A DNA stretch of 42,763 nt from Roseomonas sp. (GTDB taxonomy: Bacteria > Pseudomonadota > Alphaproteobacteria > Acetobacterales > Acetobacteraceae). This document shows positions 25,222-42,763 of the stretch, piece by piece. Positions within the stretch are counted from its first letter, which is position 1; each line of letters starts with the position of its first letter. The translations under genes and the position numbers were made by a program. The stretch lies in the NCBI GenBank assembly GCA_020249465.1, contig JADCFP010000025.1:1-42763 (forward strand). The letters run 5' to 3'. Below the pieces are notes generated by a model. The model saw only the letters and a list, made by a program, of their open reading frames with translations. It was not told the origin of the DNA and ran no database searches.

Positions 25222-26056
<835 letters not shown>

Positions 26057-27580: not shown

Positions 27581-27964
27581 TCAATTAAACACCCGCTCCA
27601 TCTGCTCTGCCCAAGGCAGCTTCGCCACCTCCACCATTTCGTTAATCGAAATCGCCGGCGGCAGGCGCTTCACCACCAGCGCCTCCAGCACCTCCGGCGC
27701 CAGAAAGGCCAGCCGGATCATCCGGCCCACATATTGGTCGGAAATCTTCTCGCTGGCGGCGATGTCCTGGATGCCGGCCATCTCCCCCTCCTCCAACTGC
27801 CGCCGCCACTTCCAGGCCCGCGCGATGGCGCGCAGCACATGCGGGTCCTGGCCCTGGCTGCCAGGCAGCCCGGCATCCTCGGGCGGCAGGATCTTTGGCC
27901 GCCCGTTACGTTTGCGGAGGGTCAGCGGAATCACAACCCGAATGCTGGTGGCGGTTTCACTCAT
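27581..27964 (-). CDS. Recombinase-associated protein with ParB/HTH-like segment
   Basis: This 127-residue protein is often found directly downstream of serine recombinases in Alphaproteobacteria, from memory of such loci. The middle segment MAGIQDIAASEKISDQYVGRMIRLAFLAPEVLEAL resembles the helix-turn-helix of ParB/KorB (recognition helix SDQYVGRMIRLAFL). A basic N-terminus (TLRKRNGRPK) could contact DNA. No catalytic motif is seen. ATG 27964 overlaps the recombinase stop by 4 bp, so the two are translationally coupled. It could be a directionality or stability factor for the recombinase; that is inference. Confidence 0.65.
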   Translation of the reverse strand: MSETATSIRVVIPLTLRKRNGRPKILPPEDAGLPGSQGQDPHVLRAIARAWKWRRQLEEGEMAGIQDIAASEKISDQYVGRMIRLAFLAPEVLEALVVKRLPPAISINEMVEVAKLPWAEQMERVFN

Positions 27965-29298
27965 GCAAAGGCCCCCTCTTTCGCGGGCAGCAGCATGTCC
28001 CGCAGGACCAAGCCGAGCCCTTCCTTGCGTAGATCAACCGCGATGCCATTGGTGCCGACGGTGATGCGCTCGACCAGCAATTGGACGATGCGCGCCTGCT
28101 CGGCCGGGTACAGCGTGCCCCAAAGCCGCTCAAACCCGGCAAGGGTCGCGACCACGGCCGCCTCCTCCACCTTCACGCCCTCGCGGCGCAGCGTGGCGAT
28201 GGTGCGGGCGGTGATTTCCGGGGCGCGGATCATGCGGTGGATTTCGCCAATCACCGCGTCTTCCACCATCGGCGCCGGCAGCCGTAGCGGACCCGGGTTT
28301 TCATCCAGCGCCCGGCTGCGGATCACATCCATGGAAACATAGTAGCGATACTGCCGAGTGCCCTTCTTGGTGAACGCCGGCGTCATGGCGCAGCCGGTCT
28401 CGGTGAAAATCAGACCCTTCAGCAAGGCCGGCGTGCGCGCCCGGGCATTGGCGGCACGCAGCCGTGGGCTGTTTTGCAGAATGGTATGCACCTTGTCCCA
28501 TAAGCTGCGGTCAATGATCGGCGCATGCTCGCCGGGATAGGAAGCGTCCTTATGCGTGGCCTCACCCAGATAGACCCTGCTGTTCAGCAGCCGGTAGATG
28601 TAGCCTTTGTCGATCGGCCTACCGCTTTTGGTACGCACGCCCTCCGCCACCAGCGCCTTGGCGAGTTTAGTCGCGGACCCGATGGCCACGAAGCGCTTGA
28701 AAATAATCCGCACGGTTGCAGCTTCGGTTTCGTTGATGATCAGCTTGCGGTCGCGCACGTCATAGCCAAGCGGCACGTAGCCGCCCATCCACATCCCCCG
28801 CTTGCGGGACGCCGCGAATTTGTCGCGAATGCGCTCACCAATCACCTCACGTTCGAACTGCGCAAAGGACAGCAAGATGTTCAGCGTGAGGCGCCCCATG
28901 CTGGTGGTTGTATTGAAGGACTGGGTGACGGAGACGAAGGTGACCTGGTTGCGATCGAAAATCTCAACCAGCCTAGCGAAATCCATCAGCGAGCGTGACA
29001 GCCGGTCAATCTTATAGACCACGATCACGTCAATCAGCCCGGCCTCCACATCGGTCAGCAGGCGCTGCAGCGCGGGGCGGTCCAGCGTGCCACCGGATAC
29101 GCCACCATCATCATAGGGCTCGCGGATGGCCGCCCAGCCTTCCGAGCGCTGGCTCGCGATATAGGCTTCGCAAGCTTCGCGCTGCGCATCTAAGGAGTTG
29201 AATTCCATGTCGAGCCCTTCCTCGCTCGACTTTCGCGTATAGATGGCGCAGCGCAGGCGGCGTGGCGTCTGCAATACGGATCCTGGTGCGCGGTTCAT
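27961..29298 (-). CDS. Large serine recombinase / site-specific integrase
   Basis: This 445-residue protein is of the resolvase-invertase superfamily. The catalytic domain (about 15-165) contains S24 in AIYTRKSSEEG, DGGVSGGTLDRPALQRLL, VYKIDRLSRSLMDFARLVEIF (RLSR motif) and SFAQFEREVIGERIRDKFAASRKRGM. The recombinase domain (about 175-275) has GYDVRDRKLIINETEAATVRIIFKRF and GYIYRLLNSRVYLGEATHK. The zinc-ribbon region keeps only one visible cysteine (ETGCAMTPAFTKKG). It is shorter than many phage integrases (500 or more). It probably moves the element, although serine recombinases seldom use tRNA genes. Coupled by ATGA overlaps to both neighbours. Confidence 0.93.
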   Translation of the reverse strand: MNRAPGSVLQTPRRLRCAIYTRKSSEEGLDMEFNSLDAQREACEAYIASQRSEGWAAIREPYDDGGVSGGTLDRPALQRLLTDVEAGLIDVIVVYKIDRLSRSLMDFARLVEIFDRNQVTFVSVTQSFNTTTSMGRLTLNILLSFAQFEREVIGERIRDKFAASRKRGMWMGGYVPLGYDVRDRKLIINETEAATVRIIFKRFVAIGSATKLAKALVAEGVRTKSGRPIDKGYIYRLLNSRVYLGEATHKDASYPGEHAPIIDRSLWDKVHTILQNSPRLRAANARARTPALLKGLIFTETGCAMTPAFTKKGTRQYRYYVSMDVIRSRALDENPGPLRLPAPMVEDAVIGEIHRMIRAPEITARTIATLRREGVKVEEAAVVATLAGFERLWGTLYPAEQARIVQLLVERITVGTNGIAVDLRKEGLGLVLRDMLLPAKEGAFA

Positions 29299-30025: not shown

Positions 30026-30177
30026 GGAGACCATCTGCAATCAATGGGAGCAGGCGAACCATCATCGCCCGTTTGATTGACTGAAAATGATCGTGCTTTT
30101 GCGCTGATGAAAGAGGGATTTAGGGGCGCAGGAAAATCGGCTATAAAGAAAGCATCAGAGCGAAAGAGACGACAAAA

Positions 30178-30684
30178 CTACTGCCGCCGCCGCGACTGCC
30201 GCCATTCCCAGGGCATCTCGAACCGCCCCGACCACATGCCCTGCGTGAGATAGCGCGCGAGATTCTCTTCGCTCACATAGTCCACCGAAAAGCGCCGATA
30301 CGCGACAGCCCAGCCATGCGCGACGAGTGATTGGCCGACATCCCGTCCGCCTGCCCAGCAGGTCGCTACAAGGCGCTGATAACGATCACGCTCTCGGCTG
30401 ATGCAGTGAACCTCTCCACCCGACACAGCTGCCGCCAGTTCCGATGCAGCGCGTCGCCCGCAGGCCCAGGCTTCACCGGCGCTATCCTCGCAGGTCTGCC
30501 GAAGCTCTGGCGCATCAATGCCGTGCAACCGCAGCCGCGTATCGCCGACCTGGAGCGTATCGCCATCAATCGCCCGCGCTTCGCCCTGCAGCAGTATGGG
30601 ATCCATGCGCTTGGCTTCAGCGGGCGCCGCAGCAACGCCAATCGCAAGCAGCGCAATAGCGAATGCAGCGTATGGTTTTCTCAC
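30178..30684 (-). CDS. Thermonuclease family protein (SNase-like), probably exported
   Basis: This is a 168-residue staphylococcal-nuclease-fold protein with a signal peptide (MRKPYAAFAIALLAIGVAAAPAEA). Catalytic residues align with the family: R52 and E60 in RLRLHGIDAPE, R104 in RDRYQRLVA, and calcium-binding D40/D42 in AIDGDT. Cysteines C65, C75, C94 and C109 may form disulfides, fitting export. GTG 30684 sits 1 bp after the stop of the SUMF1-like gene, so translation is coupled; the open frame to 30876 lies in that gene. It should cut DNA or RNA outside the cytoplasm. Its place as third gene of a repressor operon is unusual and suggests lysogenic conversion cargo. Confidence 0.85.
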   Translation of the reverse strand: MRKPYAAFAIALLAIGVAAAPAEAKRMDPILLQGEARAIDGDTLQVGDTRLRLHGIDAPELRQTCEDSAGEAWACGRRAASELAAAVSGGEVHCISRERDRYQRLVATCWAGGRDVGQSLVAHGWAVAYRRFSVDYVSEENLARYLTQGMWSGRFEMPWEWRQSRRRQ

Positions 30685-30685
30685 T

Positions 30686-31435: not shown

Positions 31436-32142
31436 CACAGCTTCTTCCCCGCCCAGATAACGCGGCCGATGATGTTCACTTCCTCAGTCGGGCGCTCATA
31501 ATCGCCATAGATTGGATTGACCGATTTGATCACGATCCGCGATGGCTCCGCGGTCGGGATATGCTCAATGCGCTTGGCAACAATCCCAAGCCCGTCCCAG
31601 ATGACGAAAATGCCAGGCGGCGCCGGCACGCGCTGCGCCGTATCCACCAGCACCCTGTCGCCTGAGGCCAAAAGCGGTTCCATCGAATCCCCATCAACGG
31701 TGATGATCCTGAGATTGGCAGTTCGTGCACGCAATTCATGGCGAATTACGGCATCGGGAAACATCCAGACTGCCTTGATTTCCTCATCACCCTCATGAAA
31801 CGCGCCGTGCCCGGCCGAAGCACGCACATCCAATTCCGGCACCTGCGAGAATCCAGGCATGCCGCCGCCCATGGCAGTTGGTGGCGGTGCGGCAATCACC
31901 GGTGGCAAAGCAGGCTCGGCTGCCGATTCTGTCTTGGGCGGCCGCAGACTTTCTTCAGGCACACCAAGGAAAGCCGCGAGCGCTTCGCGCGCATCTTCAG
32001 GCAGCGTCTTCGGAATCCCGCGATAGAGGTACTGCTGCAAATAGGCGGCGTTTCGCCCGATCGCGAGCGAGGCATTTTTCAGGTCCGTACGCTTTTGCTG
32101 GATCAGTTTCATGACCCTGAGACGCGTTGGATCGAGGTCCAT
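31435..32142 (-). CDS. S24-family phage repressor (CI/LexA-like)
   Basis: This is a 235-residue repressor with an N-terminal DNA-binding region (RLRVMKLIQQKRTDLKNASLAIGRNAAYLQQYLYRG, 7-42) and a C-terminal S24 peptidase domain. The catalytic dyad is S153 in VDGDSMEP and K190 in IVAKRIE. An Ala-Gly pair (A110-G111 in RASAGHG), 42 residues before the serine, is a plausible self-cleavage site. Such repressors hold a prophage silent and are cleaved under RecA/DNA damage. It is divergent from a Cro-like gene across an 89-bp control region. Its ribosome-binding site AAGGAG is part of the GGAGTTAGG word repeated at the putative origin. Two exported-protein genes are coupled behind it. Confidence 0.9.
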   Translation of the reverse strand: MDLDPTRLRVMKLIQQKRTDLKNASLAIGRNAAYLQQYLYRGIPKTLPEDAREALAAFLGVPEESLRPPKTESAAEPALPPVIAAPPPTAMGGGMPGFSQVPELDVRASAGHGAFHEGDEEIKAVWMFPDAVIRHELRARTANLRIITVDGDSMEPLLASGDRVLVDTAQRVPAPPGIFVIWDGLGIVAKRIEHIPTAEPSRIVIKSVNPIYGDYERPTEEVNIIGRVIWAGKKL

Positions 32143-32231
32143 GGTGCCTAACTCCTTGATCTGCCAGTGATAGGTAATAGCCTATTTTAATTATTTGACG
32201 CATGTAAACTGGGTTGTAAATCCTACGCTGC
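32143..32231. promoter_or_regulatory. Divergent control region between repressor and early operon
   Basis: The 89-bp switch region holds an imperfect palindrome with half-sites ATAGG (32170-32174) and CCTAT (32181-32185), a likely operator. On the plus strand TTGACG (32195-32200) and TAAATC (32217-32222) are 16 bp apart. Transcription from there would begin a few bases before ATG 32232, which has no Shine-Dalgarno sequence, so the Cro-like mRNA may be leaderless. CCTAACTCC at 32147-32155 overlaps the repressor's ribosome-binding site. Confidence 0.55.
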
Positions 32232-32462
32232 ATGACGACCCGATACAGCGACGAATTCCAGACCGAAGTTGAAGCCTTCCTGGCCTCCACCCGGATGAAA
32301 GCCACTGATTTTGGCCGTGAATCCATCGGAGACCCCAACTTTATCAGGCATTTGCGCCAAGGGCGATCGCCAACCCTCCTGACCGCCGATCGGGTCCGCG
32401 CCTTCATGGAACTGGTGAGGCAGAGCCGCCAAGCGTTAGGAAAGAGGACAAAACTCCCATGA
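32232..32462 (+). CDS. Small Cro-like DNA-binding protein
   Basis: This 76-residue first gene of the rightward operon has a helix-turn-helix-like segment, TRMKATDFGRESIGDPNFIRHLRQGRSPTLLTADRVRAFMELV, resembling short phage Cro-type regulators of Alphaproteobacteria. Its place opposite an S24 repressor is the classical position of Cro. No ribosome-binding site precedes ATG 32232. The stop overlaps the next start as ATGA. Confidence 0.65.
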   Translation: MTTRYSDEFQTEVEAFLASTRMKATDFGRESIGDPNFIRHLRQGRSPTLLTADRVRAFMELVRQSRQALGKRTKLP

Positions 32463-32665
32463 ATAATAGTCCTATGAATCACCTCAATCAGGTCCATCTC
32501 GCCCGGCGCTGGAACCTAAGCCCGCGCACTCTGGAACGCTGGCGCTGGCTCAATCAGGGGCCGCGCTACCTAAAGATCGGCGGGCGGGTCGTCTATCGGC
32601 TGGAGGATGTAGAGGCCTTCGAAAATGAGGTCGCCCATCAGCCCGACGCGGTGGGGGCGAAGTGA
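32459..32665 (+). CDS. Excisionase-like helix-turn-helix protein
   Basis: This 68-residue MerR-like winged-helix protein is of the HTH_17/AlpA type. The motif VHLARRWNLSPRTLERWRWLNQGPRYLKIGGRVVYRLEDVEAFENE contains the typical recognition helix and the YRLEDVEAF wing. Such proteins act as excisionases or operon activators in prophages and integrative elements. Coupled upstream and downstream by 4-bp and 1-bp overlaps (ATGA, TGATG). ATG 32474 is an alternative start. Confidence 0.8.
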   Translation: MNNSPMNHLNQVHLARRWNLSPRTLERWRWLNQGPRYLKIGGRVVYRLEDVEAFENEVAHQPDAVGAK

Positions 32666-33024
32666 TGGATTGCCACCTGCACCTTCCCCTGCAGCCGATG
32701 GAGAGCGTCGCTTCGGGCGAGGCCGCGCTCAGCGAGAACGGCCTTTGTGACCGCTTTGCAGACGCCAAGCCTGACGAGGTGATCACCTATCACATCGGCA
32801 TGCTGGCGCGTGATCGCGACAGGCTTGCCACGGCGCTCGCTCCTGAGCATCGCGACGCACTGGAACTGGTCGCCCGCCGCGCCTGGGCCATGGCCGAGGC
32901 TGGGCTCTGCCATCTCGTGCAGCGGCGCCTCGGCACCGAACGCTTTGCCTATGTCCTGATCGTGCGGCCGCGCCACACAGGCATGAGCGTCGCGTGTTCA
33001 CCCTCGGCGGACCGCCGGAATTGA
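32665..33024 (+). CDS. Unrecognised early-operon protein
   Basis: This 119-residue protein has no family that I recognise. The middle part (DEVITYHIGMLARDRDRLATALAPEHRDALELVARRAWAMAEAGLCHLVQRRL) is predicted to be helical. ATG 32665 overlaps the preceding stop as TGATG; GTG 32662 is possible. Coupling and GC-rich codon use support it as a real gene. Confidence 0.6.
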   Translation: MDCHLHLPLQPMESVASGEAALSENGLCDRFADAKPDEVITYHIGMLARDRDRLATALAPEHRDALELVARRAWAMAEAGLCHLVQRRLGTERFAYVLIVRPRHTGMSVACSPSADRRN

Positions 33025-33082
33025 ACGGACCCGCGGCATGCCATCGCTCTCCCCTGAACCAATCCCTGATCGGAGGTCAGCA

Positions 33083-33163
33083 ATGACTCATTCCATCCAC
33101 GCGCGTGCTGTCCAAGCCGAAAGGCTTTCGGACGTCCGCCCTTTCCAAAGGGGGCGCGCGTAA
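33083..33163 (+). CDS. 26-residue ORF coupled to the P-loop NTPase gene
   Basis: ATG 33083 follows a strong GGAGG (33072-33076) by 6 bp, the best ribosome-binding site nearby. The peptide (MTHSIHARAVQAERLSDVRP, then FQRGRA) ends at TAA 33161-33163, whose last base is the A of the next gene's ATG (TAATG). The NTPase gene has no good site of its own, so this small frame may load ribosomes for it. No family is recognised. Confidence 0.5.
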   Translation: MTHSIHARAVQAERLSDVRPFQRGRA

Positions 33164-34038
33164 TGGCCCTCAAGATCATCAGCGCCGAAGAGCGTATGGC
33201 AGAATCGCGCGGCATCAAGGCAGCGATTTTCGGTGGTAGTGGCCAGGGCAAGACCAGCCTGCTTTGGACGCTCCCTGCCGATCGCACGATTTTCATGGAT
33301 CTGGAGGCGGGTGATCTCGCTGTCGAAGGCTGGACCGGCGATACGATCCGCCCACGCACCTGGCAGGAATGCCGGGACTTCGCGGCCTTTATCGGCGGGC
33401 CCAACCCGGCACTGCGCGATGACCAGCCCTATTCGCCGGCGCATTACGCCGCCGCCTGCGAGCAATTCGGCGATCCCGCCTCGCTTGATCGCTACGAGAC
33501 CGTGTTTGTGGACAGCATCAGCGTCGCGGGGCGTCTTTGCTTTCAGTGGTGCCGTGGCCAGCCCGAAGCCTTCTCCGAAAAAAGCGGCAAGCCCGATATT
33601 CGCGGCGCCTATGGCCTGCATGGCCGGGAGATGATCGCCTGGCTCACGCATCTGCAGCATACGCGCGGCAAGAACATCATCTTTGTCGGTATCCTCGATG
33701 AGAAACTCGATGACTTCAATCGCAAGCTCTATGTGCCGCAGATTGATGGCAGCAAGACCGGGCTCGAACTACCGGGCATCGTGGATGAGGTTCTGACGCT
33801 CGCCGCGATCAAGGATGAGAACAGCCAACTGCGGCGCGCCCTGGTTTGCCACACGCTCAATCCTTGGGGCTATCCCGCCAAGGATCGCAGCGGTCGGCTT
33901 GACCTGATCGAGGAACCGCATCTCGGCCAGCTGTTTGCGAAAATCCGCGGCCCGGCGCGCCCGATCACTGAACGCCTTGAGCATGCGGCGCCGAGCATCG
34001 CCGCGCCGGAAACCACCACCCCCACCATCAGCGAATAA
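33163..34038 (+). CDS. Phage P-loop ATPase (AAA_24 / Sak4-like)
   Basis: This 291-residue RecA-fold NTPase has Walker A GGSGQGKTS (24-32) and Walker B TVFVD (113-117), of the AAA_24 type that includes Sak4-like phage recombinases. Other blocks: FMDLEAGDLAVEGW, KPDIRGAYGLHGREMIAWLTHLQH and KNIIFVGILDEKLDDFNRKLYVPQIDGSK. Sak4 proteins work with a phage SSB in homologous recombination; the next gene may be that partner. It is TAATG-coupled to a 26-residue ORF. The Pro/Thr-rich tail is probably disordered. Recombinase activity is inferred. Confidence 0.75.
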   Translation: MALKIISAEERMAESRGIKAAIFGGSGQGKTSLLWTLPADRTIFMDLEAGDLAVEGWTGDTIRPRTWQECRDFAAFIGGPNPALRDDQPYSPAHYAAACEQFGDPASLDRYETVFVDSISVAGRLCFQWCRGQPEAFSEKSGKPDIRGAYGLHGREMIAWLTHLQHTRGKNIIFVGILDEKLDDFNRKLYVPQIDGSKTGLELPGIVDEVLTLAAIKDENSQLRRALVCHTLNPWGYPAKDRSGRLDLIEEPHLGQLFAKIRGPARPITERLEHAAPSIAAPETTTPTISE

Positions 34039-34049
34039 GGAGCAGGACC

Positions 34050-34682
34050 ATGGCGACATGGAACGACTATAATGACGCGCGGCAGAACCCCAATCTGATC
34101 CCCAAAGGGACACTGGCGAAGCTTCGCCTCACTATCCGCCCGGGCGGCTTCGATGATGCAAGCCAGGGCTGGCATGGCGGTTATGCGACGCGCGGCACGA
34201 CTGGCGCGGTGTATCTGAATTGCGAGTTCACCGTTCTCGAGGGCCCATACGCCAAGCGCAAGATTTTCACGCTGATTGGCCTTTACAGCCCGAAGGGTCC
34301 CGATTGGGCGAATATGGGGCGTGGCCTCATTCGCGGCATGCTGAATTCCGCGCGCGGCATTTCCGACAAGGACATCTCGCCCAATGCCCAGGCGGCGCGG
34401 CGTATCACCAGCTTTGCCGATCTGGATGGCATTGAATTCGTCGGCAAGATCGAGATCGGCACCGATACCAATGGCGAGGACAAGAACGAAGTCCGCATGG
34501 CGCTGACGCCCGATCATCGGGATTACGCGCACATCATGGGCCGCGTTGCACTGCCTGGCCTTCCGCCTCAGGCGCCGGCCCCTGCGGCCATGGCTCCACC
34601 CGCAGCATATCCTGACGCCTATCTTGCCGCACCACCGCCGCAGGCCGCCAGTGGCGATCCCCGTCCCAGTTGGGCGCGCTGA
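34050..34682 (+). CDS. Possible phage ssDNA-binding protein
   Basis: This 210-residue protein starts MATWNDYNDARQNPNLIPKGTLAKLRLTIRPGG, reminiscent of DUF669-type phage proteins that act as SSB-like partners of Sak/AAA_24 recombinases. The middle is beta-rich (GGYATRGTTGAVYLNCEFTVLEGPYAKRKIFTLIGL; FVGKIEIGTDTNGEDKNEVRMAL), fitting an OB-like fold. The tail from about 170 is Pro/Ala-rich and ends RPSWAR, like flexible SSB tails. It lies 11 bp after the NTPase gene. The call rests on layout and neighbours. Confidence 0.5.
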   Translation: MATWNDYNDARQNPNLIPKGTLAKLRLTIRPGGFDDASQGWHGGYATRGTTGAVYLNCEFTVLEGPYAKRKIFTLIGLYSPKGPDWANMGRGLIRGMLNSARGISDKDISPNAQAARRITSFADLDGIEFVGKIEIGTDTNGEDKNEVRMALTPDHRDYAHIMGRVALPGLPPQAPAPAAMAPPAAYPDAYLAAPPPQAASGDPRPSWAR

Positions 34683-34700
34683 GGCAGGAGCGCCCGACCC

Positions 34701-36377
34701 ATGATGCTTCGCCCCCGCCAGAAGCTTTTCGTCGCGCGCAGCCTGGCTGCGCTTGATAAGCACGGAAATACGCTTGGCATCGCTCCGACCGGTGGAGGTA
34801 AGACGGTTATGCTCTCCGCTACGGTGGGTGAGCATCTTGCGGGGCGCGGCAGCAAGGCGGCGGTCCTCGCGCATCGGGACGAATTGACCCTGCAAAACCA
34901 CGCGAAGTTCTGCCGCGTGAATCCTGGCGTCAGTACCTCCGTGGTCGATGCCAACCAGAAATCCTGGGCGGGTCAGGTCACCTTCGCCATGGTGCCCACC
35001 CTGACGCGCCCGGCGAACCTGGAAAGCATGCCCAGGCTCGACCTGCTGGTGATTGATGAGGCCCATCACGCCATCGCGCAGAGCTATCGGCGCATCATTG
35101 ACCGCGCGCGGGATCAAAACCCCGATTGCCGCATCTATGGCGTGACCGCCACACCCAATCGTGGCGACAAGATTGGGCTGCGGGAGATGTTTTCCAATGT
35201 AGCGGATCAGATCCGGCTGGGTGAGTTGATCGCCTCCGGCCATCTCGTCCCACCGCGAACCTTCGTCATTGATGTCGGCGTGCAGGATGAACTGCGCAAT
35301 GTCCGCCGCAGCGGCGATGATTTCGACATGAATGAAGTGGCCCGGGTGATGGACACCGTCCCGGTGACCGATGCCGTGGTCAAGCACTGGAAGGAAAAAG
35401 CCGGAGACCGACAGACCGTCGCTTTCTGCTCCACCATCGCCCATGCCGAGAACGTGGCGGCAGCCTTCAACGCGGCGGATGTGCCAACCGTCATGGTTAC
35501 CGGCGATATGGGCGAGGCAGAGCGCCGCGCCGTGCTCGCGGCTTATGCCTCGGGCGAGGCGCGCGTCATCGTCAATGTCGCCGTGCTGACCGAAGGCTGG
35601 GACCATCCGCCCACCTCCTGCGTCGTGCTGCTGCGACCGAGTTCCTACAAGGCCACCATGATCCAGATGGTGGGGCGCGGGCTGCGCACCGTTGATCCGG
35701 TCGAACACCCCGGCATCATCAAGCGCGACTGCATCGTGCTGGATTTTGGCACTTCGTCACAAATCCATGGCTGCCTGGAACAGGATGTGGATCTGGACAG
35801 ACAGCCTGGCACTGGTGAGGCCCCCACCAAAACCTGCCCGTCCTGCGAGGCGGAAATCCCCATCGCCGTGATGGAATGCCCGATCTGCGGTCATGCCTTT
35901 GAGGCAGGTGGGCGCGCGGCAGCACCAGTTTCCGATTTCATCATGACGGAAATCGATCTGCTCTCGCGCTCCAGCTTCGAGTGGTGCGACCTTTTTGGCG
36001 ATGACGCTTCGCTGCTGGCCAATGGCTTTCATGGCTGGGCCGGTATCTTTTTTCTAAACGGTGCCTGGCACGCGGTGGGCGGCGCCCGGTGCGAACCGAC
36101 AAGGCTGCTTTCCATCGGCGAACGCATGGTCGCTCTGGCGGCCGCCGATGATTGGCTGAATGAGCACGAGACCGATGAAAGCGCCCATAAAAGCCGCCGC
36201 TGGTTGCGTGAGCCGCCGACCGATCGGCAATTGGCGCACCTGCCGCCCGAACGACGCAGCGATTACGGCCTGACGCGCTATCACGCCTCGGCGCTGCTGA
36301 CCTTCAAATTCAATCGCAACACCATCCGCTACCTGATCCAAAATGCGCAGGGCGCCAATCTGGCGACGGCAGCATGA
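34701..36377 (+). CDS. SF2 DEAD/DEAH-box helicase with zinc-finger insert
   Basis: This is a 558-residue superfamily 2 helicase. Motif I APTGGGKT (28-35), motif II DEAH (119-122), motif III TATPNR (149-154), motif V VAVLTEGWD (293-301) and motif VI QMVGRGLR (322-329) are all present. A four-cysteine zinc site follows: C379, C382, C393 and C396 in CPSC-x10-CPIC. The C-terminal 160 residues are specific to this phage group (LPPERRSDYGLTRYHASALLTFKFNRNTIRYL). Likely a replication or recombination translocase. It starts at ATG 34701, 18 bp after the previous gene, with AGGCAGGAG upstream; ATG 34704 is an alternative. Confidence 0.9.
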   Translation: MMLRPRQKLFVARSLAALDKHGNTLGIAPTGGGKTVMLSATVGEHLAGRGSKAAVLAHRDELTLQNHAKFCRVNPGVSTSVVDANQKSWAGQVTFAMVPTLTRPANLESMPRLDLLVIDEAHHAIAQSYRRIIDRARDQNPDCRIYGVTATPNRGDKIGLREMFSNVADQIRLGELIASGHLVPPRTFVIDVGVQDELRNVRRSGDDFDMNEVARVMDTVPVTDAVVKHWKEKAGDRQTVAFCSTIAHAENVAAAFNAADVPTVMVTGDMGEAERRAVLAAYASGEARVIVNVAVLTEGWDHPPTSCVVLLRPSSYKATMIQMVGRGLRTVDPVEHPGIIKRDCIVLDFGTSSQIHGCLEQDVDLDRQPGTGEAPTKTCPSCEAEIPIAVMECPICGHAFEAGGRAAAPVSDFIMTEIDLLSRSSFEWCDLFGDDASLLANGFHGWAGIFFLNGAWHAVGGARCEPTRLLSIGERMVALAAADDWLNEHETDESAHKSRRWLREPPTDRQLAHLPPERRSDYGLTRYHASALLTFKFNRNTIRYLIQNAQGANLATAA

Positions 36378-36380
36378 GTC

Positions 36381-36749
36381 ATGACGCGCGCTGCCCAATA
36401 CCCCTGCGCCGTCTGCGCACGCCCGGCGCTTGGCTTTGGCTGGTTCGACCCAGTCAAGCAGAAGCAGCGCCGCCCCTCGGTCATGTTCTGCAGCATGGCC
36501 TGCCAGGGCTTCTGGTCGCGCTTGGCGCGGAGATCGCCCGCCATGGTTGATCTGACCGAGCAGGAACAAGCCGCCATGCGTGCTGCCATGCGCAACCTGG
36601 GCGAAGCGATGCAGGAAATCGGCTGGAACACGCGCCTTTGCGATCTGACCGAGGCCCAGGTGCTGACGCTGATTGAGGTCGCGGTCGGCGCCTTTCAGGA
36701 CGCCATGCGGGCCATGGCCCGGCAGGAAATCGGGGAGATACCCTTCTGA
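36381..36749 (+). CDS. DUF6511-like small zinc-finger protein
   Basis: This 122-residue protein has N-terminal cysteine pairs, PCAVCARPALGFGW (C9, C12) and FCSMACQGFWSR (C37, C41), which can bind zinc. A helical C-terminus follows (EQEQAAMRAAMRNLGEAMQEIGW, EAQVLTLIEVAVGAFQDAM). It resembles phage DUF6511 proteins of unknown function. It begins 3 bp after the helicase stop and overlaps the nuclease start as TGATG, so all three are translated together. Confidence 0.7.
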   Translation: MTRAAQYPCAVCARPALGFGWFDPVKQKQRRPSVMFCSMACQGFWSRLARRSPAMVDLTEQEQAAMRAAMRNLGEAMQEIGWNTRLCDLTEAQVLTLIEVAVGAFQDAMRAMARQEIGEIPF

Positions 36750-37516
36750 TGCTGGACTTCAACAGCCGCAGCCAAGCGGGCCTTGTGATCAATGCCGCGA
36801 TTGATACCGCGCTGGAGCAGGACAACGCCGCCCAGGCGCCGCGCAACTATCTGGGTGGCTCGCGCCTTGGCCATGCCTGTGAGCGGGCGCTGCAATTCGA
36901 ATACCTCCAGGCGCCCAAGGATGAAGGTGCCGGCTTTGACGGAAGGCTGCTCCGCATCTTTGCCATCGGCCACGTGCTGGAGGATTTGGCGGTGGCCTGG
37001 CTGCGCGGCGCGGGCTTTCAGTTGTTCACGCGCAAGGGCGATCAGCCCAAAGCACCGCAATTTGGCTTTTCCATCGTGGGTGGGCGCATTCGCGGCCATG
37101 TTGATGGCGTGATCGCCGACGGCCCCGATATTCCCGGCATGGCCTTTCCCGCGCTTTGGGAATGCAAGACCATGAACGCCAAGGCCTGGCGTGAGACCGC
37201 CAGCAAGGGTGTCGCTGCCGCCAAGCCCATCTATGCCGCGCAGATCGCGATTTATCAGGCCTATATGGACGCGGCCATTCCGGGCGTTGCGGATAATCCG
37301 GCGCTGTTCACCGCCATCAATAAGGATACCGCGGAACTGCATCACGAGCTGCTGCCCTTCAACGCGGAATTGGCGCAGCGCATGTCAGACCGTGCGGTGC
37401 GCATCCTACGCGCCAGTGACGCCGGTGAATTGCTCCCGCGTATTGCACTCGCCGCTGATCACTTCGAATGCCGGTTCTGTCCCTGGGCAAAGCGCTGTTG
37501 GGACCAGCCTGCATGA
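36749..37516 (+). CDS. PD-(D/E)XK nuclease with Fe-S cysteines (Cas4/RecB-like)
   Basis: This 255-residue protein is a RecB/Cas4-like exonuclease. The metal-binding core is D119 in GHVDGVIAD and E138-x-K140 in LWECKTMN, with QIAIYQAYM as motif Q-x3-Y. Cysteine C44 near the N-terminus and C241, C244 and C250 in ECRFCPWAKRCW at the C-terminus are placed like the [4Fe-4S] ligands of Cas4 and AddB. No cas1/cas2 or CRISPR array is near, so a phage recombination role is more likely than adaptation. It overlaps the primase start by ATGA. Confidence 0.85.
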   Translation: MLDFNSRSQAGLVINAAIDTALEQDNAAQAPRNYLGGSRLGHACERALQFEYLQAPKDEGAGFDGRLLRIFAIGHVLEDLAVAWLRGAGFQLFTRKGDQPKAPQFGFSIVGGRIRGHVDGVIADGPDIPGMAFPALWECKTMNAKAWRETASKGVAAAKPIYAAQIAIYQAYMDAAIPGVADNPALFTAINKDTAELHHELLPFNAELAQRMSDRAVRILRASDAGELLPRIALAADHFECRFCPWAKRCWDQPA

Positions 37517-38412
37517 CAGTCTGGACTGATTTCAACGATGCAGTGTCGGCGCTGGAGGACCGACTGCCCAGCGAAGGGCAATCGATCGCCACACCTGCCG
37601 CGCCGGATCTGGAACAGATCAAAAGCTTCCTCGCGGTGGCCTTCAGCTATTGCGAGGGGCTGATCCCGGTGCGCGGCTTTGTCGATCAGGGGCAAGGGCT
37701 GACGACCAGGCCGCACAATATCTGGATCCCGGCCGATGCGGCGGCGCCGGAATTGCTCGCCACCTATGCCACCTGGGCTGCGCGCGAAGGTAGCGCTGTT
37801 TATGTCATCCCCGGCACGGTCGCCGAACATGGCCAGGCCCGCGCAGAGCATGTGCTGCAAATGCAGGCCGTGGTTGTTGATCTCGATACCGGCGATATCG
37901 CAGCGAAGCTCGCCCACCTGTTGCAGCACCTTGGGGAACCGACGCTGATTGTCGAAAGCGGTGGGCGCACAGCCGAAGGTGCGGCGAAGCTGCATGTCTG
38001 GTGGAAACTGACCGAACCGGCTGCGGGGGCAGAGCTTGCGCGGCTTTGCGCCTTGCGCGGTGAGATCGCCGATAAGGTCGGCGGCGATCCGCATTTCCGT
38101 TCCGCCCATCAGCCCATCCGCGTTCCCGGCACGGTCTATCGCAAGGCGGGCGCGGAGCGCATCGTCACCATCCGGGCCCACAACCCGGCGCGTGAATTGG
38201 ACCTTGGCGACTTTGCCGAGGCCATTGCCGCCATGCCCTTTCTGCCAGGCCAGGATCGGCCACAGGCGGGCGCACACAGGCCGATAGGCCAGGGCTTGGC
38301 GCCATCCTCACCACACCCGTCCGCGAAGGCGCCCAGGACGCCTGGACGCGCTTTCAGGGCGCGAGTGCCGCCATCGGTCATTTTGTCCGCCAGGTGCATG
38401 AAGGCCGCATGA
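37513..38412 (+). CDS. Phage primase (RepB-like AEP), C-terminus out of frame
   Basis: This 299-residue open frame starts at ATG 37513 (ATGA overlap). The archaeo-eukaryotic-type primase core is seen in VVVDLDTGD (D123, D125), ESGGRTAEGAAKLHVWWKL (H161) and HFRSAHQPIRVPGTVYRK (195-211), as in RepB-type phage primases. From about residue 253 (38269) the translation becomes Pro/Arg/Ser-rich and unlike any domain. From that point the neighbouring frame (-1) reads good protein: GAILTTPVREGAQDAWTRFQ followed by a PriCT-like segment that runs into the next gene. Either a one-base indel or a frameshift event split a primase-helicase fusion. Confidence 0.75.
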   Translation: MTVWTDFNDAVSALEDRLPSEGQSIATPAAPDLEQIKSFLAVAFSYCEGLIPVRGFVDQGQGLTTRPHNIWIPADAAAPELLATYATWAAREGSAVYVIPGTVAEHGQARAEHVLQMQAVVVDLDTGDIAAKLAHLLQHLGEPTLIVESGGRTAEGAAKLHVWWKLTEPAAGAELARLCALRGEIADKVGGDPHFRSAHQPIRVPGTVYRKAGAERIVTIRAHNPARELDLGDFAEAIAAMPFLPGQDRPQAGAHRPIGQGLAPSSPHPSAKAPRTPGRAFRARVPPSVILSARCMKAA

Positions 38413-39887
38413 CGCCCGATGAGGGCTGGGAAGCCATCTGCGGCTACAACGCCGCCTGTCTGCGCCCGACATGGCCGCTGGAACGCCTCAAGGCCGAGGC
38501 TGACGCAATCTGGGCGCGGCATGTCACGCGCAACGGGCCCGCGACGCTGCGTGCGGAGGCACCGTCAGCCGAAATCGTCGCGCACCGGCTTGGCGCCTTG
38601 CTGGATGATACCTCGCCCATGCCTGATGACCTGATCGGGCCACGCCTGCTCACGCCAGGGGGCATGCTGGTGCTGGGTGGCGCGCCCAAGGTCGGCAAAT
38701 CCGATTTCCTGATCAGCCTGCTGATCCATGCCGCCGCCGGCGCACCATTCCTGCGCTTTACCGCGCCGCGCCCCTTGCGGGTTTTCTACCTCCAGGCCGA
38801 GATCCAATACCACTACCTGCGCGAACGCTTGCAGCAGTTGCGGTTGGATCCGGCGATACTGGCGAGGGCGCGCGATACGCTGGTGGTCACGCCAAAGCTT
38901 CGGTTGCTGCTCAATGAAGAAGGCGTGGCGCAGGTAGCCGCCGGCATCCGCAGCGCTTTTCCTGATGCGCCGCCTGACATCATCAGCATCGACCCAATCC
39001 GCAACCTGTTTGACGGCGGCCCCGAGGGCGAAAGCGAGAACGACAACGGGGCCATGCTGTTCTTTTTGCAAAGCCGCGTGGAGGCGCTGCGCGACATGGT
39101 GGCGCCCGAAGCTGGCGTGATCCTGGCGCATCACACCAAGAAGCTCAGCAAGCAGCAGGTGAAGGATGATCCATTCCTATCCCTCTCCGGCGCGAGCGCG
39201 CTGCGCGGGTTCTACACCTCCGGCATGATCCTGTTCCGGCCGGATGAGGAAAAGACCCAGCGCGAATTGCATGTCGAACTGCGCAATGGGCCAGGGATCG
39301 CACCGCTACTGGTCGACAAGATCGGTGGTCGCTGGGTGGAACTGGATCGCCACAGCGAGCGCCTGGTCAGGCAGGAGATCGGCCGTAAGCTCGATGCGGA
39401 GCGGCTGCGCAAGCAGGATGTAATCCTTGGCGTCTTGCTCGATGAGGCCGCCGAAGGGCGCCTCTATTCCATCATGCAGCTGGCCGAGAAGTTCGAGAAC
39501 ACGCTCGGCCTCGGCAGCAAGCACACGATCCGCGAGCGCCTGAGCGTGCTCGCCACCAAGGGCTTTGTAAAATTCCGCCGCGACGGCAGCGAGTTCGGTC
39601 TCGACGTTGTCAGGTCGCGCTTTGGCTACCTCTGCGTCGAGGGCATGACCTTTGGACCGGATATCGAGACCATCGATCCGGACACCGGCGAGGTGACCAC
39701 CAGCGCCCGTCGCGTCCTGCCGAGCCACTTCAAATGCCCCCAAACCGGCAACTGCCTGGACGTCGAAAATCCGGAAATCTGGGTCTACCCGCAGGGGGTT
39801 TTGGACGACCTAACTCCTCCCGAAAATGACCTAACTCCTGAGGAGTTAGGCCTAACTCCTCACTCCTCCCGAAAAATAAAATCATGA
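38409..39887 (+). CDS. RepA-like AAA ATPase/helicase with PriCT remnant and C-terminal winged helix
   Basis: This protein has 492 residues from ATG 38409, which overlaps the primase stop as ATGA. GTG 38394 is an alternative start, and the frame is open back to 38196. Residues 1-45 (MTPDEGWEAICGYNAACLRP onward) are the second half of a PriCT-like helical domain whose first half lies upstream. The AAA_25 ATPase follows: Walker A GGAPKVGKS (90-98), Walker B IISID (191-195), sensor VILAHHTKK (237-245). It resembles hexameric RepA of RSF1010. A winged-helix segment (about 335-400, SIMQLAEKFENTLGLGSKHTIRERL) could bind DNA. The last residues, with LTP every seven codons, are encoded by the 21-bp iterons. 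Confidence 0.85.
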   Translation: MTPDEGWEAICGYNAACLRPTWPLERLKAEADAIWARHVTRNGPATLRAEAPSAEIVAHRLGALLDDTSPMPDDLIGPRLLTPGGMLVLGGAPKVGKSDFLISLLIHAAAGAPFLRFTAPRPLRVFYLQAEIQYHYLRERLQQLRLDPAILARARDTLVVTPKLRLLLNEEGVAQVAAGIRSAFPDAPPDIISIDPIRNLFDGGPEGESENDNGAMLFFLQSRVEALRDMVAPEAGVILAHHTKKLSKQQVKDDPFLSLSGASALRGFYTSGMILFRPDEEKTQRELHVELRNGPGIAPLLVDKIGGRWVELDRHSERLVRQEIGRKLDAERLRKQDVILGVLLDEAAEGRLYSIMQLAEKFENTLGLGSKHTIRERLSVLATKGFVKFRRDGSEFGLDVVRSRFGYLCVEGMTFGPDIETIDPDTGEVTTSARRVLPSHFKCPQTGNCLDVENPEIWVYPQGVLDDLTPPENDLTPEELGLTPHSSRKIKS

Positions 39888-39999
39888 GATCAATCACTTG
39901 CGAGGACAGAGGAGTTAGGTGCCTAACTCCTCAAATTTCCCACCTAACTCCTCTTTTTTTCAGTTGTATCAATCAACTTTCGCATTTGGAGGAGTTAGG
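39809..39999. repeat. Iteron cluster, candidate replication origin
   Basis: There are eight perfect copies of a 9-mer. CCTAACTCC starts at 39809, 39830, 39851, 39922 and 39943; the inverse GGAGTTAGG starts at 39842, 39911 and 39991. Forward copies are spaced exactly 21 bp in two groups (39809/39830/39851 and 39922/39943). Inverse and forward copies abut at 39842-39859 (inside a perfect 22-bp palindrome) and are 2 bp apart at 39911-39930. AT-rich tracts (39871-39882, 39952-39959) and the repeat GTTG(TATCAAT)CAAC at 39963-39977 lie between. The first four copies are inside the ATPase gene. Confidence 0.8.
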
Positions 40000-40195
40000 T
40001 GCTTCATCACCCCCCTACGGGGGGTGTGCGTGCGCGCCAAACAAGGCGCGCGCACACCACACCCGGGGGACTGGGTCGCGCGCACGAGGTCCCCCTCCCA
40101 AGACCCCATCCCAAAAGCCGGGCAGCGACGGTGTGCTCCGCCAAGAACCCCACCGCCGCCGCCCTCACCACAACCATCCCCATCAGGAGACAATC
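39888..40195. other. Non-coding stretch: iterons, hairpins and leader of the resolvase gene
   Basis: About 308 bp between the RepA-like and RuvC-like genes. The left part carries the second half of the iteron cluster, the middle the two strong hairpins, and the right part a C-rich segment leading to the ribosome-binding site AGGAG at 40184-40188. The in-frame extension of the resolvase frame back to 39884 runs through repeats and is not protein-like. Confidence 0.6.
40008..40057. repeat. Two adjacent strong hairpins next to the iterons
   Basis: Hairpin 1 has CACCCCCC (40008-40015) and GGGGGGTG (40019-40026), a perfect 8-bp stem with a TAC loop. Hairpin 2 has GTGTGCG-TG-CGCGCC (40024-40038) and GGCGCGCGCACAC (40045-40057), 13 pairs with a 2-nt bulge and loop AAACAA. 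They share 3 bp and cannot fold together fully. No T-run follows. Confidence 0.7.
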
Positions 40196-40747
40196 ATGGC
40201 TCTCTCGACTCTCCCCATGTCCGCGGCGCTGGCAAGCAGGCCGCCCAGCATCAGCGGCGGCGATATCGGCACCGCGCGCCGCCCAGGCGTCCTGGCGCTT
40301 GATCTGGGCACCATAACCGGCTGGGCGCTGCGCTCAGGTAACGGCGCCATCACCTCGGGCACCATGACCTTTCGGCCCAGCCGCTTCGAAGGCGGTGGCA
40401 TGCGGTTTCTCCGCTTTCGCGCCTGGCTGACCGAGGTCACACAGCTCGCCGGTGAATTGTCTCAAATCGCGTTCGAAGAAGTACGCGCCCATGCAGGCAC
40501 CGACGCTGCGCACCTCTACGGCGGCTTTCTGGCCCATCTTTCGGCGTGGTGCGAGGAACGCGCCATCGCCTACCAGGGCGTCCCGGTCGGCACGATCAAG
40601 CGCTACGCGACCGGCAAGGGCAATGCCGACAAGGCAGCCATGATCGCTGCCATGCGGGCACGTGGCTTTGCGCCGGCTGATGACAACGAAGCCGATGCGC
40701 TCGCCTTGCTGCTCTGGGCCACCGACGTAGAGGGAGGCAGGGCATGA
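40196..40747 (+). CDS. RuvC-like Holliday junction resolvase (phage type)
   Basis: This is a 183-residue RNase H-fold nuclease of the RuvC type. Acidic catalytic positions: D36 in VLALDLGTITGWA, E94 or E95 in IAFEEVRAH, and D163/D167 in ADDNEADALALLLW. Conserved GVPVGTIKRYATGKGNADKAAM (129-150) is shared with phage RuvC-like resolvases. The start is set by AGGAG at 40184-40188 before ATG 40196. It lies behind the putative origin and ends in ATGA with the next gene. It would resolve branched DNA made by the recombination and replication genes upstream. Confidence 0.85.
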   Translation: MALSTLPMSAALASRPPSISGGDIGTARRPGVLALDLGTITGWALRSGNGAITSGTMTFRPSRFEGGGMRFLRFRAWLTEVTQLAGELSQIAFEEVRAHAGTDAAHLYGGFLAHLSAWCEERAIAYQGVPVGTIKRYATGKGNADKAAMIAAMRARGFAPADDNEADALALLLWATDVEGGRA

Positions 40748-40974
40748 GCCTCCTGCACGGCGCCCCGATGCTCGCGCAGAACCCGATGACGCGCCTGCGC
40801 AGCACAACCAACGACACCGAATTGAACGCCATGCGCGCGGCCGCATGGCACCGGCATGGCGTGGCCAGCATCGCGGTGGATGACATCACCGATCCTTGGC
40901 TGCGCCAAGCCATCACCAACGAAGCCAATCGCCGCTGGGGGCGGCGCAATGGAGGAAATAACCATGGCCGCTAA
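40744..40974 (+). CDS. Unrecognised small protein
   Basis: This 76-residue protein overlaps the resolvase stop by 4 bp (ATGA), a strong sign of a real gene. The sequence contains MTRLRSTTNDTELNAMRAAAWHRHGVASIAVDDI, DPWLRQAITNEANRRWG and a basic end. No family is recognised. Its last 11 bases overlap the start of the next gene. Confidence 0.6.
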   Translation: MSLLHGAPMLAQNPMTRLRSTTNDTELNAMRAAAWHRHGVASIAVDDITDPWLRQAITNEANRRWGRRNGGNNHGR

Positions 40975-41584
40975 GCGCAAGGACAAACGCCCCGCTAAGC
41001 CTCGTGAGGATTTGTCAGCGCCATCAAAGTGGCGCCTGCAGCATGGCGATATCGGTCCGGCCACACGCGTAGCCGATCCGGAAAGCAGCACGCCGATCAT
41101 GCAACGGCGTTGCATCGACACGCTCGGCCTCATGCTGGCCAAGGGCAGTATCACGCAGCCCATGCACGACGCCGGCCAGAATTTCCGCGCGACGTTCCGC
41201 ATCGCCGCACTGGATGGCATGCGCACGACGCAGCTGCTTCGTATTCCAAGCAGCACCAGCGACCCACTCACCGAAGGTCAGACTGCAGCAAGACAACGCA
41301 TCGCTGCAATGCTGAGTTTATTCGGTGGCGCCGATAGTGCCGGTGGAAGCTGCCTCTGGCATGTGCTGGGCCTTGAATGCTCCCTGCGCGAATGGGCAAC
41401 ACGCCAGGGATGGTCAGGCCGCTCCGTCCATCACGTTCAGGCGCAAGGTATTCTTCTCACGGCTCTTGGCGTCTTGGCGGTTCATTATGGCCTGCAGCCA
41501 AAGGCGCGTGATGCACAAGCCTTAGCCGAGGGCGGCCTTGAGATCGTTCATCGTGGCCATCAGCATCAGCGGATCGGCAGGTGA
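40964..41584 (+). CDS. Unrecognised phage-like protein
   Basis: This protein has 206 residues from ATG 40964, preceded by GGAGG; ATG 40949 is possible. The N-terminus is basic (MAAKRKDKRPAKPREDL). The central part DAGQNFRATFRIAALDGMRTTQLLRI and the end SCLWHVLGLECSLREWATRQGWSGRSVHHVQAQGILLTALGVLAVHYGL resemble small phage proteins with a possible helix-turn-helix (LREWATRQGWSGRSVHHVQ). No function is assigned. Its 3' end overlaps the convergent GNAT toxin gene by 63 bp. Confidence 0.65.
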   Translation: MAAKRKDKRPAKPREDLSAPSKWRLQHGDIGPATRVADPESSTPIMQRRCIDTLGLMLAKGSITQPMHDAGQNFRATFRIAALDGMRTTQLLRIPSSTSDPLTEGQTAARQRIAAMLSLFGGADSAGGSCLWHVLGLECSLREWATRQGWSGRSVHHVQAQGILLTALGVLAVHYGLQPKARDAQALAEGGLEIVHRGHQHQRIGR

Positions 41585-42028
41585 CGGCGTAAAACCACAG
41601 GCTTGATAGAAACGCTGTGCGTCGGCGTTCAGCGCCTGGACCAGCAAGCCCCGCACGGCAAGTACCTCACCAGCCTGCAAGACGCGCAGGACCGCATCCC
41701 GCAACAGGGCACGCCCAATGCCCTGGCCATGCAGGGTGCGGTCCACCGCCAAACGGCCCAATAACGCCATAGGGATTGGGTCAGGCATGTTGCGCTTGAT
41801 CCGCCCTGGTGCAGCAGCAACCGCCACAGCCCCTGCGGCCAGGCAATAGAAGCCCACAACAAAACTACCGCGGCAAACAACAAAGGTTCGCGATGCACCC
41901 GCTACCTGATTCGTGCGCGCACGCTGCTTGAGCCAACCGTCGAGCGATGGCTCACCGCTATCGAACATCGCAAGTTCGTGCGTGTCGTCGAGAGGAACGG
42001 GAGCTGAAATCTCCCCTCTCACCCCCAT
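41522..42028 (-). CDS. GNAT-family toxin (TacT/AtaT-like acetyltransferase)
   Basis: This 168-residue GNAT acetyltransferase is of the type II toxin class that acetylates the amino group of charged tRNAs. The acetyl-CoA loop is HGQGIGRALLRDA, preceded by LLGRLAVDRTL. The C-terminal QRFYQACGF carries the general-acid tyrosine. The N-terminus (PVPLDDTHELAMFDSGEPSLDGWLKQRARTNQ) is typical of TacT/AtaT. It overlaps its antitoxin gene by 10 bp and is transcribed with it. tRNA target is unknown. Confidence 0.9.
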   Translation of the reverse strand: MGVRGEISAPVPLDDTHELAMFDSGEPSLDGWLKQRARTNQVAGASRTFVVCRGSFVVGFYCLAAGAVAVAAAPGRIKRNMPDPIPMALLGRLAVDRTLHGQGIGRALLRDAVLRVLQAGEVLAVRGLLVQALNADAQRFYQACGFTPSPADPLMLMATMNDLKAALG

Positions 42029-42342
42029 GGCGGCGTTGTCTTGAGTAGTTTCCGCAGCTTTTCATTCGGCTGAGGTGGTGCGTCGAGCATTGCCAAAAAG
42101 CGCGTAAAGGCTGCTGGTTCAAGGCGCAGCAGCGTACGGTCAAGGATGGCATCGGTTGCTGCGCGACGCGCTGCTTCCAGCATGAATTCAGAGCGCGACT
42201 TGCCTGAGAGCACCGCAGCCTGATCGATCAGCGCGCGTTCTTCGGGGCGGATGCGGATATTGACGGCACCAACCGTGACAGAGGGCTTGGCCTTCGTGAC
42301 GCGTCGGCGCGGCGTTGTGATGCGTTTGGCGGTTGAGGGCAT
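42019..42342 (-). CDS. DUF1778 antitoxin (TacA-like, RHH)
   Basis: This is a 107-residue antitoxin. The basic N-terminal tail is followed by the ribbon-helix-helix VGAVNIRIRPEERALIDQAAVLSGKSRSEFMLEAARRAATDAI. The C-terminal segment LEPAAFTRFLAMLDAPPQPNEKLRKLL is the part that wraps and inhibits the GNAT toxin in known pairs. It probably autorepresses the operon through the upstream TGTA/TACA site. Confidence 0.9.
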   Translation of the reverse strand: MPSTAKRITTPRRRVTKAKPSVTVGAVNIRIRPEERALIDQAAVLSGKSRSEFMLEAARRAATDAILDRTLLRLEPAAFTRFLAMLDAPPQPNEKLRKLLKTTPPWG

Positions 42343-42368
42343 TGCTATCTCCTGAAAGGGTTTTACAG

Positions 42369-42384
42369 CAATGTATGTACAATG
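42369..42384. promoter_or_regulatory. Candidate operator of the toxin-antitoxin pair
   Basis: TGTA-TG-TACA (42372-42381), with A/T flanks, is an inverted repeat 30 bp upstream of the antitoxin ATG, where its RHH domain would be expected to bind. Only one site is seen. Confidence 0.4.
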
Positions 42385-42667
42385 TCCACCATGCCGTTCT
42401 TGCCCCGCTCAAAACGTATTGCGGCGTCGGAACCAGATGGGATAGTATTTCGACAGTCGTTGAATTGCGACTGCAGCCGGGTGACGGCATCTGGCAGTAG
42501 ATCGTACAACGGAACGAACATTGTAGAGCAGATAACGCGAGAACGTAAAGTAAAGCTAATTCGATGACAGGTTGATTTCTGATTACATGGTTCCTTCCTG
42601 GCGATTTTGTATGCGGGGGGCGGAAGCGCCCGACCTCTCTAGCGCCAGAATAAAAATATGGGTTGCA

Positions 42668-42763
42668 GTTTGCACCATAGTGACGCGAATTCAATGGCTT
42701 AGGTGCAAACCTAGGCCCCTCAGGTTTGCACTTGGTTTGCACCCAACCCCCGCATGGTTTGCG
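42668..42763. repeat. GTTTGCAC repeat cluster running off the window
   Basis: GTTTGCAC occurs at 42668, 42724 and 42735. Its inverse GTGCAAAC is at 42703, and a further near-copy (GTTTGCG) starts at 42757 and is cut by the window end. The last three begin 11 and 22 bp apart, so they lie on the same face of the helix. Likely binding sites for a regulator or replication protein encoded to the right. Confidence 0.6.

Follow-up and report, generated by a model that had tools for sequence, protein, structure and literature searches.

By comparing an iteron-like repeat array from a Roseomonas sp. contig with its counterparts in related elements, we arrived at a candidate replication origin of prophage type, which would be read by the winged helix of the helicase encoded beside it and exchanged together with that winged helix as a specificity cassette, an interpretation that we consider quite probable. 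The stretch of DNA under study, hereafter the window, is one whole contig (JADCFP010000025.1, assembly GCA_020249465.1) of 42,763 bases from a host genome of 4.07 Mb, and its right part reads as a prophage-type element. In this element, the array (39809..39999, copies on both strands) lies across the end of the gene of a RepA-like AAA_25 ATPase with a C-terminal winged helix (38394..39887, + strand; PF13481, E=8.9e-19; phrog_239, DNA primase/helicase, E=1.6e-27). Sequence comparison shows an array whose repeats are coupled to the winged helix, the exchange of both as one unit and a scaffold that recurs around them, and points to a large prophage-type group (Roseomonas-like, Paracoccus-like and other alphaproteobacterial records) with a compact candidate replication start, recognisable from sequence. 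The apparent origin specificity of this group is swapped as a cassette at the border of a helicase domain, and the natural record of such exchange is unusually clear.

The repeat array and its relatives

The array, assigned below to type A, comprises five exact CCTAACTCC copies on the + strand (39809, 39830, 39851, 39922 and 39943) and three on the - strand (39842-39850, 39911-39919 and 39991-39999, reading GGAGTTAGG), with a further copy carrying one mismatch at 39858. It stands far above chance. Matches to CCTAACTCC with at most one mismatch numbered 15 in the window, against a mean of 3.0 and a maximum of 9 in 100 dinucleotide shuffles, and the 11-mer CCTAACTCCTC occurred eight times in the 4.07-Mb genome, seven of them in the array. 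The top 8-mer of the 390-bp stretch was found eight times (at most three in 40 shuffles), and none of 105 other windows of the contig held an 8-mer as frequent. An earlier note on this DNA, made from its letters alone, had reported the same five and three copies, a recurrent LTP in the coding part and neighbouring AT tracts, all of which hold: the last 26 ATPase codons fall within the array, whose coding part translates as LTPPEND-LTPEELG-LTP, and AT content reaches 73% at 39870-39899 and 63% at 39930-39989, versus 39% for the window overall. Furthermore, synonymous codon identity between the window and 25 loci was 332/362 (92%) in type A array codons versus 52-63% elsewhere in the gene, suggesting that the constraint acts on DNA. 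Compared with Rfam, the stretch 39300-40500 gave nothing at gathering score, and a known RNA family in the array was rejected, the weak matches looking like chance.

Scans with the ATPase returned at least 595 relatives in IMG/VR and 474 in a one-genome-per-species collection, the best 80 of each being kept; titles among the one-per-species matches kept include Roseomonas, Falsiroseomonas, Paracoccus and Rhodobacteraceae. In addition, the ATPase (E up to 1e-60) was present in 22 of 299 genomes drawn from the order of the window, its own genome included. This draw gave 33 matches, from which 29 stretches were fetched; 15 lay on contigs already in the one-per-species set, two ended before the array and 12 were used. 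The main set held 161 loci (the window and 160 others), of which 12 with fewer than 150 bases after the stop codon were dropped, leaving 149 typed regions. Repeat types were set after inspection of 29 regions together with automatic k-mers, and assigned by motif count plus a rule for types A and B, the least secure labels being those of L146 and L149 (two copies each). Five loci (L010, L145, L159, L160 and L162) with an in-frame stop in the matched stretch were left off the trees, which therefore hold 144 loci and none of types F and H.

At the same place, these relatives bear short repeats of other sequence, of nine kinds by assigned labels: A (CCTAACTCCTC, 30 regions), B (CCTNACTCAT, 69), C (TGGCAACTG, 4), C2 (TGGCAGCT, 2), D (CCGAAACTGC, 25), E (TGCGGAACTT, 15), F (TTCGTCCTC, 2), G (TTCNCAACT, 1) and H (CCTAAGTCCTC, 1). 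Types A, C, D, E and G have an AACT core in common. For types A, C, D and E, the usual number of sites was 7 to 12, spread over ~200 bp; with one mismatch allowed, 8 to 12 copies were counted in types C, D and E, and 2 to 6 in type B.

The earlier note had expected the same ATPase to carry different but equally phased repeats at its 3' end in related elements, and had stressed the 21-bp, two-turn phasing. Different repeats were indeed found, and the phasing is real in the window copy, where same-strand copies are 21 and 21 bp apart and again 21 bp in the second group, but it does not extend to the relatives. Neighbouring same-strand sites of type A are 80 bp (29 times), 69-72 bp (49 times) or 21 bp (16 times) apart. 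Among short spacings, those of 8, 12 and 17 bp prevail in type C, those of 8, 12, 17 and 21 bp (the last nine times) in type D and those of 9, 12 and 13 bp in type E; distances of 67-82 bp recur in all three of these types. Helical phasing was thus rejected as the key feature. As for an origin at the end of the ATPase gene, comparison of the relatives supports this location, but overlap with the gene does not appear essential, the array lying 3' of the stop codon in the 12 regions of types C, D and E inspected.

The ATPase frame runs on for at least 291 codons upstream in 146 of the 147 relatives with enough upstream sequence, so that one polypeptide joins a primase-like part, the AAA_25 ATPase and the winged helix. 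The primase part matched phrog_10514 (DNA primase, E 6.5e-4), phrog_239 matched the C-terminal domain alone (E 3.8e-9), and the primase-helicase gave no match in NCBIfam. An AlphaFold2 model of 39378-39797 (mean predicted local distance difference test score, pLDDT, 83; 55 for the full-length model) yielded three helices and a beta wing, the helices being placed at residues 343-353, 360-367 and 379-388, of which the last would be the recognition helix. The winged-helix segment thus modelled covers residues 343-427 (39420..39674, + strand), with a LexA_DNA_bind match below cut-off at its third helix; such sub-threshold matches were obtained in 15 of 29 members.

Coupling of repeat type to the winged helix and exchange as a unit

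Four relatives of other types (L015, L016, L019 and L023, of types C and D), picked for their close helicase cores, were compared with the window over 38400-40700 by change-point analysis. In all four, DNA identity to the window was 90-94% before a central block, 55-61% inside it and 81-91% beyond. The block spans 39404-40007 in L015, 39404-40009 in L019, 39294-40007 in L016 and 39292-40007 in L023; it starts at the border between helicase and winged helix (39404, two relatives) or ~110 bp before (two relatives), and ends just past the last repeat (40007-40009) in every case. By contrast, sliding identity of the same-type relatives L003 and L004 to the window remained at 83-100% throughout the block. 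At the protein level, identity between the window and L015 falls from 93-100% up to residue 330 to 18-70% after it. These profiles delimit a specificity cassette of winged-helix codons and array (39404..40007, + strand), and indicate that the two have been exchanged as one unit between elements. Other exchange points exist as well, since the similarity of L004 to the window ends ~860 bases behind the ATPase stop, just past the resolvase gene that follows the array.

The repeat types were then mapped on protein trees. With seven types on the trees, the minimum is six type changes; over the 144 loci, the ATPase core tree (residues 1-330) required at least 26 and the winged-helix tree (residues 341-468) only 7, while core segments of equal length required 25 to 34. 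The tree of the primase part gave 27 changes versus 7 for the winged helix (120 loci). The RuvC-like resolvase gene beyond the array (40196..40747, + strand; phrog_159, E=4.8e-25), which lies outside the exchanged block and has its start a median distance of 329 bases past the stop codon, served as a linkage control: for the same 123 loci, its tree required 27 changes, the ATPase core 23 and the winged helix 7, and we regard this control as the strongest point in favour of coupling. Taken singly on the winged-helix tree of 144 loci, types C, C2, D, E and G changed once each, A three times and B twice, so that the single change above the minimum sits at the border between A and B, whose repeats are alike. 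On the core tree, type A changed 16 times, D 15, E 7 and B 4.

Among 4230 pairs with core identity of at least 85%, winged-helix identity was 0.72-1.0 for same-type pairs (2652) versus 0.44-0.74 for different-type pairs (1578), two ranges with hardly any overlap. Residues 375-384 vary between most types, the third helix starting with SKHTIRER in most A and B, GNSTIRER in C and C2, GKD(T/N)IR(E/D)R in D and G, and G(D/N/E)DTI(A/S)RR in E. In 12 additional loci, the repeat type was that of the nearest known winged helix in 11; no listed motif fits the twelfth (L191) well, and it bears CACAACT copies, as does its nearest relative, L155. This check adds little except for L190, L191 and L192 (0.72-0.87 identity), because the other winged helices are identical to known ones (four) or 94-98% identical (five).

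These results bear on whether repeats and winged-helix codons merely travel together by adjacency, with no functional coupling. Both lie within a few hundred bases, a distance that a single recombination tract could span. However, repeat type changes 27 times on the tree of the RuvC-like gene across the array and 7 times on that of the winged helix, the exchanged block ends just past the last repeat in all four relatives, and no clear mismatch between winged helix and repeats was seen between types, the blurred A/B border aside. Pure linkage was rejected on the tree comparison, and we hold it to be extremely improbable. Since repeat type tracks the winged helix far more closely than it tracks the remainder of the protein or the gene that follows, the winged helix is the best-supported candidate reader of the array, in line with the proposal of the earlier note that the neighbouring ATPase recognises these sites through its winged-helix segment.

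A model of the candidate origin

The array is embedded in a recurring scaffold. Exact matches to WATCARNNNNTTR, a string associated with integration host factor (IHF) in the literature, were found in 114 of 149 regions, all on one strand, and two such sites within one mismatch in 116 of 149. Exact sites reached 0.95 per region versus 0.0038 per 400-bp control window (n=3423), an enrichment of ~250-fold, and in every type with paired sites their commonest positions are separated by 79 to 82 bp. Regions missing these sites belong chiefly to types D, E and A, and the sole G region has none. The host genome encodes four genes of the HU/IHF family. Directly behind the array of the window come two tandem hairpins (40008..40069, + strand), the first being CACCCCCC-TAC-GGGGGGTG with a TAC loop. 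Under a search that required stem complementarity, a TAC-loop hairpin was present behind the array in 138 of 146 regions versus 16 of 6026 control windows, with stems as varied as CCCCCC, CCCATAC and CTCCCTAC, and was followed by a second hairpin in 85 of the 138; in types F, G and H (four regions), this search found no first hairpin. GC skew, averaged over 72 loci, was ~-0.04 upstream and ~+0.01 downstream; the first 500-bp bin after the stop codon, where most of the array lies, reached -0.17. Further downstream, a stretch that is well conserved between the window and several relatives (40117-40201, - strand) matched the symR antitoxin of Rfam weakly (35 bits, for a gathering score of 61).

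From the position of these features, and by analogy with characterised systems of like layout, we propose the following sequence of events. The winged helix of the primase-helicase protein would bind the repeats, which in most types consist of an AACT core and flanking bases specific to the type. The IHF of the host, or a related protein, would occupy one or two sites ~80 bp apart and bend the DNA, bringing the repeat clusters together. Helicase subunits may then collect on the array, the AT-rich DNA would open, and the helicase could load without a separate loader. The primase part of the same polypeptide would lay the first primers, perhaps at the conserved hairpins downstream. Beyond these steps, recombination swaps winged helix and array between elements as one cassette, which would alter origin specificity while retaining helicase, primase and neighbouring genes.

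The position between two genes would also suit an operator, at which the winged helix of the ATPase regulates the ATPase operon or the RuvC-like gene while replication starts elsewhere, and a winged helix can be a repressor domain, as the LexA-like match below cut-off recalls. In addition, an isolated exact CCTAACTCC at 32147-32155 overlaps the ribosome-binding region of an S24-type phage repressor (31435..32142, - strand; PF00717, E=1.3e-12), and the L003 record has a lone repeat at the same distance from its array. However, among virus records of type A, which include fragments, exact sites were confined to the array in five of six, and the density of sites in types A, C, D and E, combined with IHF-type sites, is unusual for an operator, so that we judge this alternative unlikely.

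A partition, packaging or recombination site (parS, pac or a resolution site) instead of an origin is highly improbable in our view. In its favour, a RuvC-like gene follows the array, and IHF sites occur at recombination sites too. ParB-like proteins were also encountered in both relatives whose downstream proteins were scanned; there, on the downstream side of the origin module, a ParB-like domain and a DNA methyltransferase are joined in one protein (two tandem copies at 8719-12142 in L007; 9232-10686 in L044). Against this, specificity tracks the helicase domain and not the RuvC-like protein.

Several observations weigh against the origin reading itself. The loci are mutually related, and counts over them are not independent. 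Type B arrays (69 of 149 regions) are degenerate, many having two or three exact copies, the level of shuffles or control windows. Types A and B are not single clades on the winged-helix tree, the A-labelled L158 and L161 being nearest to B rows, and residues 375-384 do not separate all types, being common to A and B, with GKDTIR in both D and G. DnaA boxes, a frequent but not universal feature of iteron origins, are not enriched with one mismatch allowed (0.020 per region over 149, versus 0.018 per control window over 3423), and the shift in GC skew is slight. Similarity of the primase part to PF16793 (RepB_primase) stays under the Pfam cut-off (11 of 19 members, best E 0.0026), and its comparison with the PDB returned no credible match, only unrelated enzymes (E 0.05-0.11). 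Likewise, the helicase profile matched no PDB chain at E up to 0.1, nor did Foldseek find a PDB match to the winged-helix model at E up to 0.001. In the window copy, the primase-like part (37468..38412, + strand; weakly RepB_primase-like, PF16793 E=0.014, below cut-off) and the helicase part are in different frames, with the break before the helicase part, and there is no exact IHF-type site, only one with a mismatch to WATCARNNNNTTR found by motif search (39888..39900, + strand) and no second within one mismatch.

The split frame, set against the continuous one of the relatives, and the single imperfect IHF-type site left raise the serious possibility, which we rate somewhat short of likely, that the copy in the window is a relic, the element having decayed and its origin no longer working here. 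However, its eight repeats are intact, the frame break may be a sequencing error, and the origin reading of the relatives is unaffected.

If winged helix and array form such an exchangeable origin module, the cassettes may act as replication-specificity groups comparable to plasmid incompatibility groups, spread by recombination because a new specificity escapes titration or interference by the origins of resident elements, and the roughly nine types, mostly sharing an AACT core and one fold, may form a recognition code. This extension is tentative and rather doubtful. Ten typed genomes hold two to four such elements each; of the 21 pairs formed within genomes, 4 are of the same type, against a mean of 5.9 after shuffling (P = 0.24), which is not significantly few; these co-residence data do not show an escape from resident-origin interference. 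The natural pairs of winged helix and repeat nevertheless open two questions, namely how winged helices come to recognise new DNA targets and how far replication specificity limits the coexistence of prophages.

The scans also annotated other genes. The remainder of the replication/recombination module (33163..37516, + strand) encodes a Sak4-like AAA_24 protein, a phrog_2300 member, a DEAD/ResIII helicase and a Cas4-like exonuclease. A large serine recombinase (27961..29298, - strand; PF00239, E=2.8e-40; PF07508, E=2.7e-14) adjoins a small open reading frame (27581-27964, - strand), possibly an accessory or directionality factor. Close to the contig end lies a GNAT acetyltransferase with a TacA-like antitoxin (TacAT-type toxin-antitoxin pair, 41522-42342, - strand). 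A second, distant relative of the ATPase is encoded elsewhere in the host genome (L164, G000:C35:7607-8110; 30% identical, E 7.9e-7).

Comparison with known replication systems

Titles and abstract openings of open-licence papers on phage WO, prophage iterons and winged helices, Staphylococcus aureus pathogenicity islands (SaPI), RSF1010, origin specificity, lambdoid O proteins, Paracoccus prophages and modular exchange did not describe these arrays. The nearest annotated phage homologues of the ATPase core are from Wolbachia phage WO (nine records, 42-52% identical over about half of the query). However, the WO AAA_25 proteins, both of those in KX522565 and one in MW788656, end after the ATPase core, with no winged helix and no array behind, and megablast of 26000-42763 against 50,697 phage records gave no match. 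Membership in phage WO was rejected on these grounds, the protein comparison covering the ATPase core.

In phage lambda, the iterons overlap the gene of the initiator O, and related phages pair other iterons with matching initiators. Unlike the protein described here, O is itself no helicase and depends on P and DnaB, and its iterons lie inside the gene and not at its end. Lambda iterons carried on a plasmid, acting with oop transcription, inhibit phages that replicate in the lambda manner (PMC3349717), which offers a possible reason for the diversification of specificity. In extrachromosomal mycobacterial prophages, a RepA-like initiator drives replication from an origin in or beside its gene, and the compatibility of such RepA-type origins was tested (PMC7157519). 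By contrast, those RepA proteins, of 320-350 residues, have their helix-turn-helix at the N-terminus, and the study found no repeated motifs (PMC7157519).

Closer likenesses are offered by initiators that act as helicases. In SaPI Rep/ori and Cch2 of the staphylococcal cassette chromosome mec (SCCmec), the initiator helicase has a C-terminal domain that attaches to iterons located immediately 3' of the helicase gene, the primase is either fused to it or encoded close by, and self-loading has been proposed (PMC7581432). Array position and winged-helix coupling in the present elements would fit such a domain, binding being a prediction. The two differ in domain content, DUF927 or Primase_Cterm/D5 there and Pfam AAA_25 only here, a distinction drawn at the level of domains. 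P4 alpha and ORF904 of pRN1 likewise join primase, helicase and winged helix in one protein; the winged helix of P4 alpha binds origin repeats and its primase is of another type, while in pRN1 the origin immediately follows the gene and has a stem-loop, the system differing in its superfamily 3 (SF3) helicase and lack of iterons (PMC4234260).

RSF1010 (IncQ) combines a RepA-type helicase, a RepB-type primase, iterons and adjacent hairpins, as the present elements may do. Its iterons are bound by RepC. Among the window proteins scanned, we found no separate RepC-like iteron binder, many open reading frames lying outside those scans. Here the helicase is supported by the PF13481 AAA_25 match but by no PDB chain for its profile, and RepB similarity falls below cut-off. 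RSF1010 functions are carried by three separate polypeptides (PMC4234260), whereas the relatives studied here join the domains in one protein. Overall, the layout is like that of SaPI Rep, P4 alpha and RSF1010, with membership in none of them established, and suggests an RSF1010-like division of labour fused in one polypeptide.

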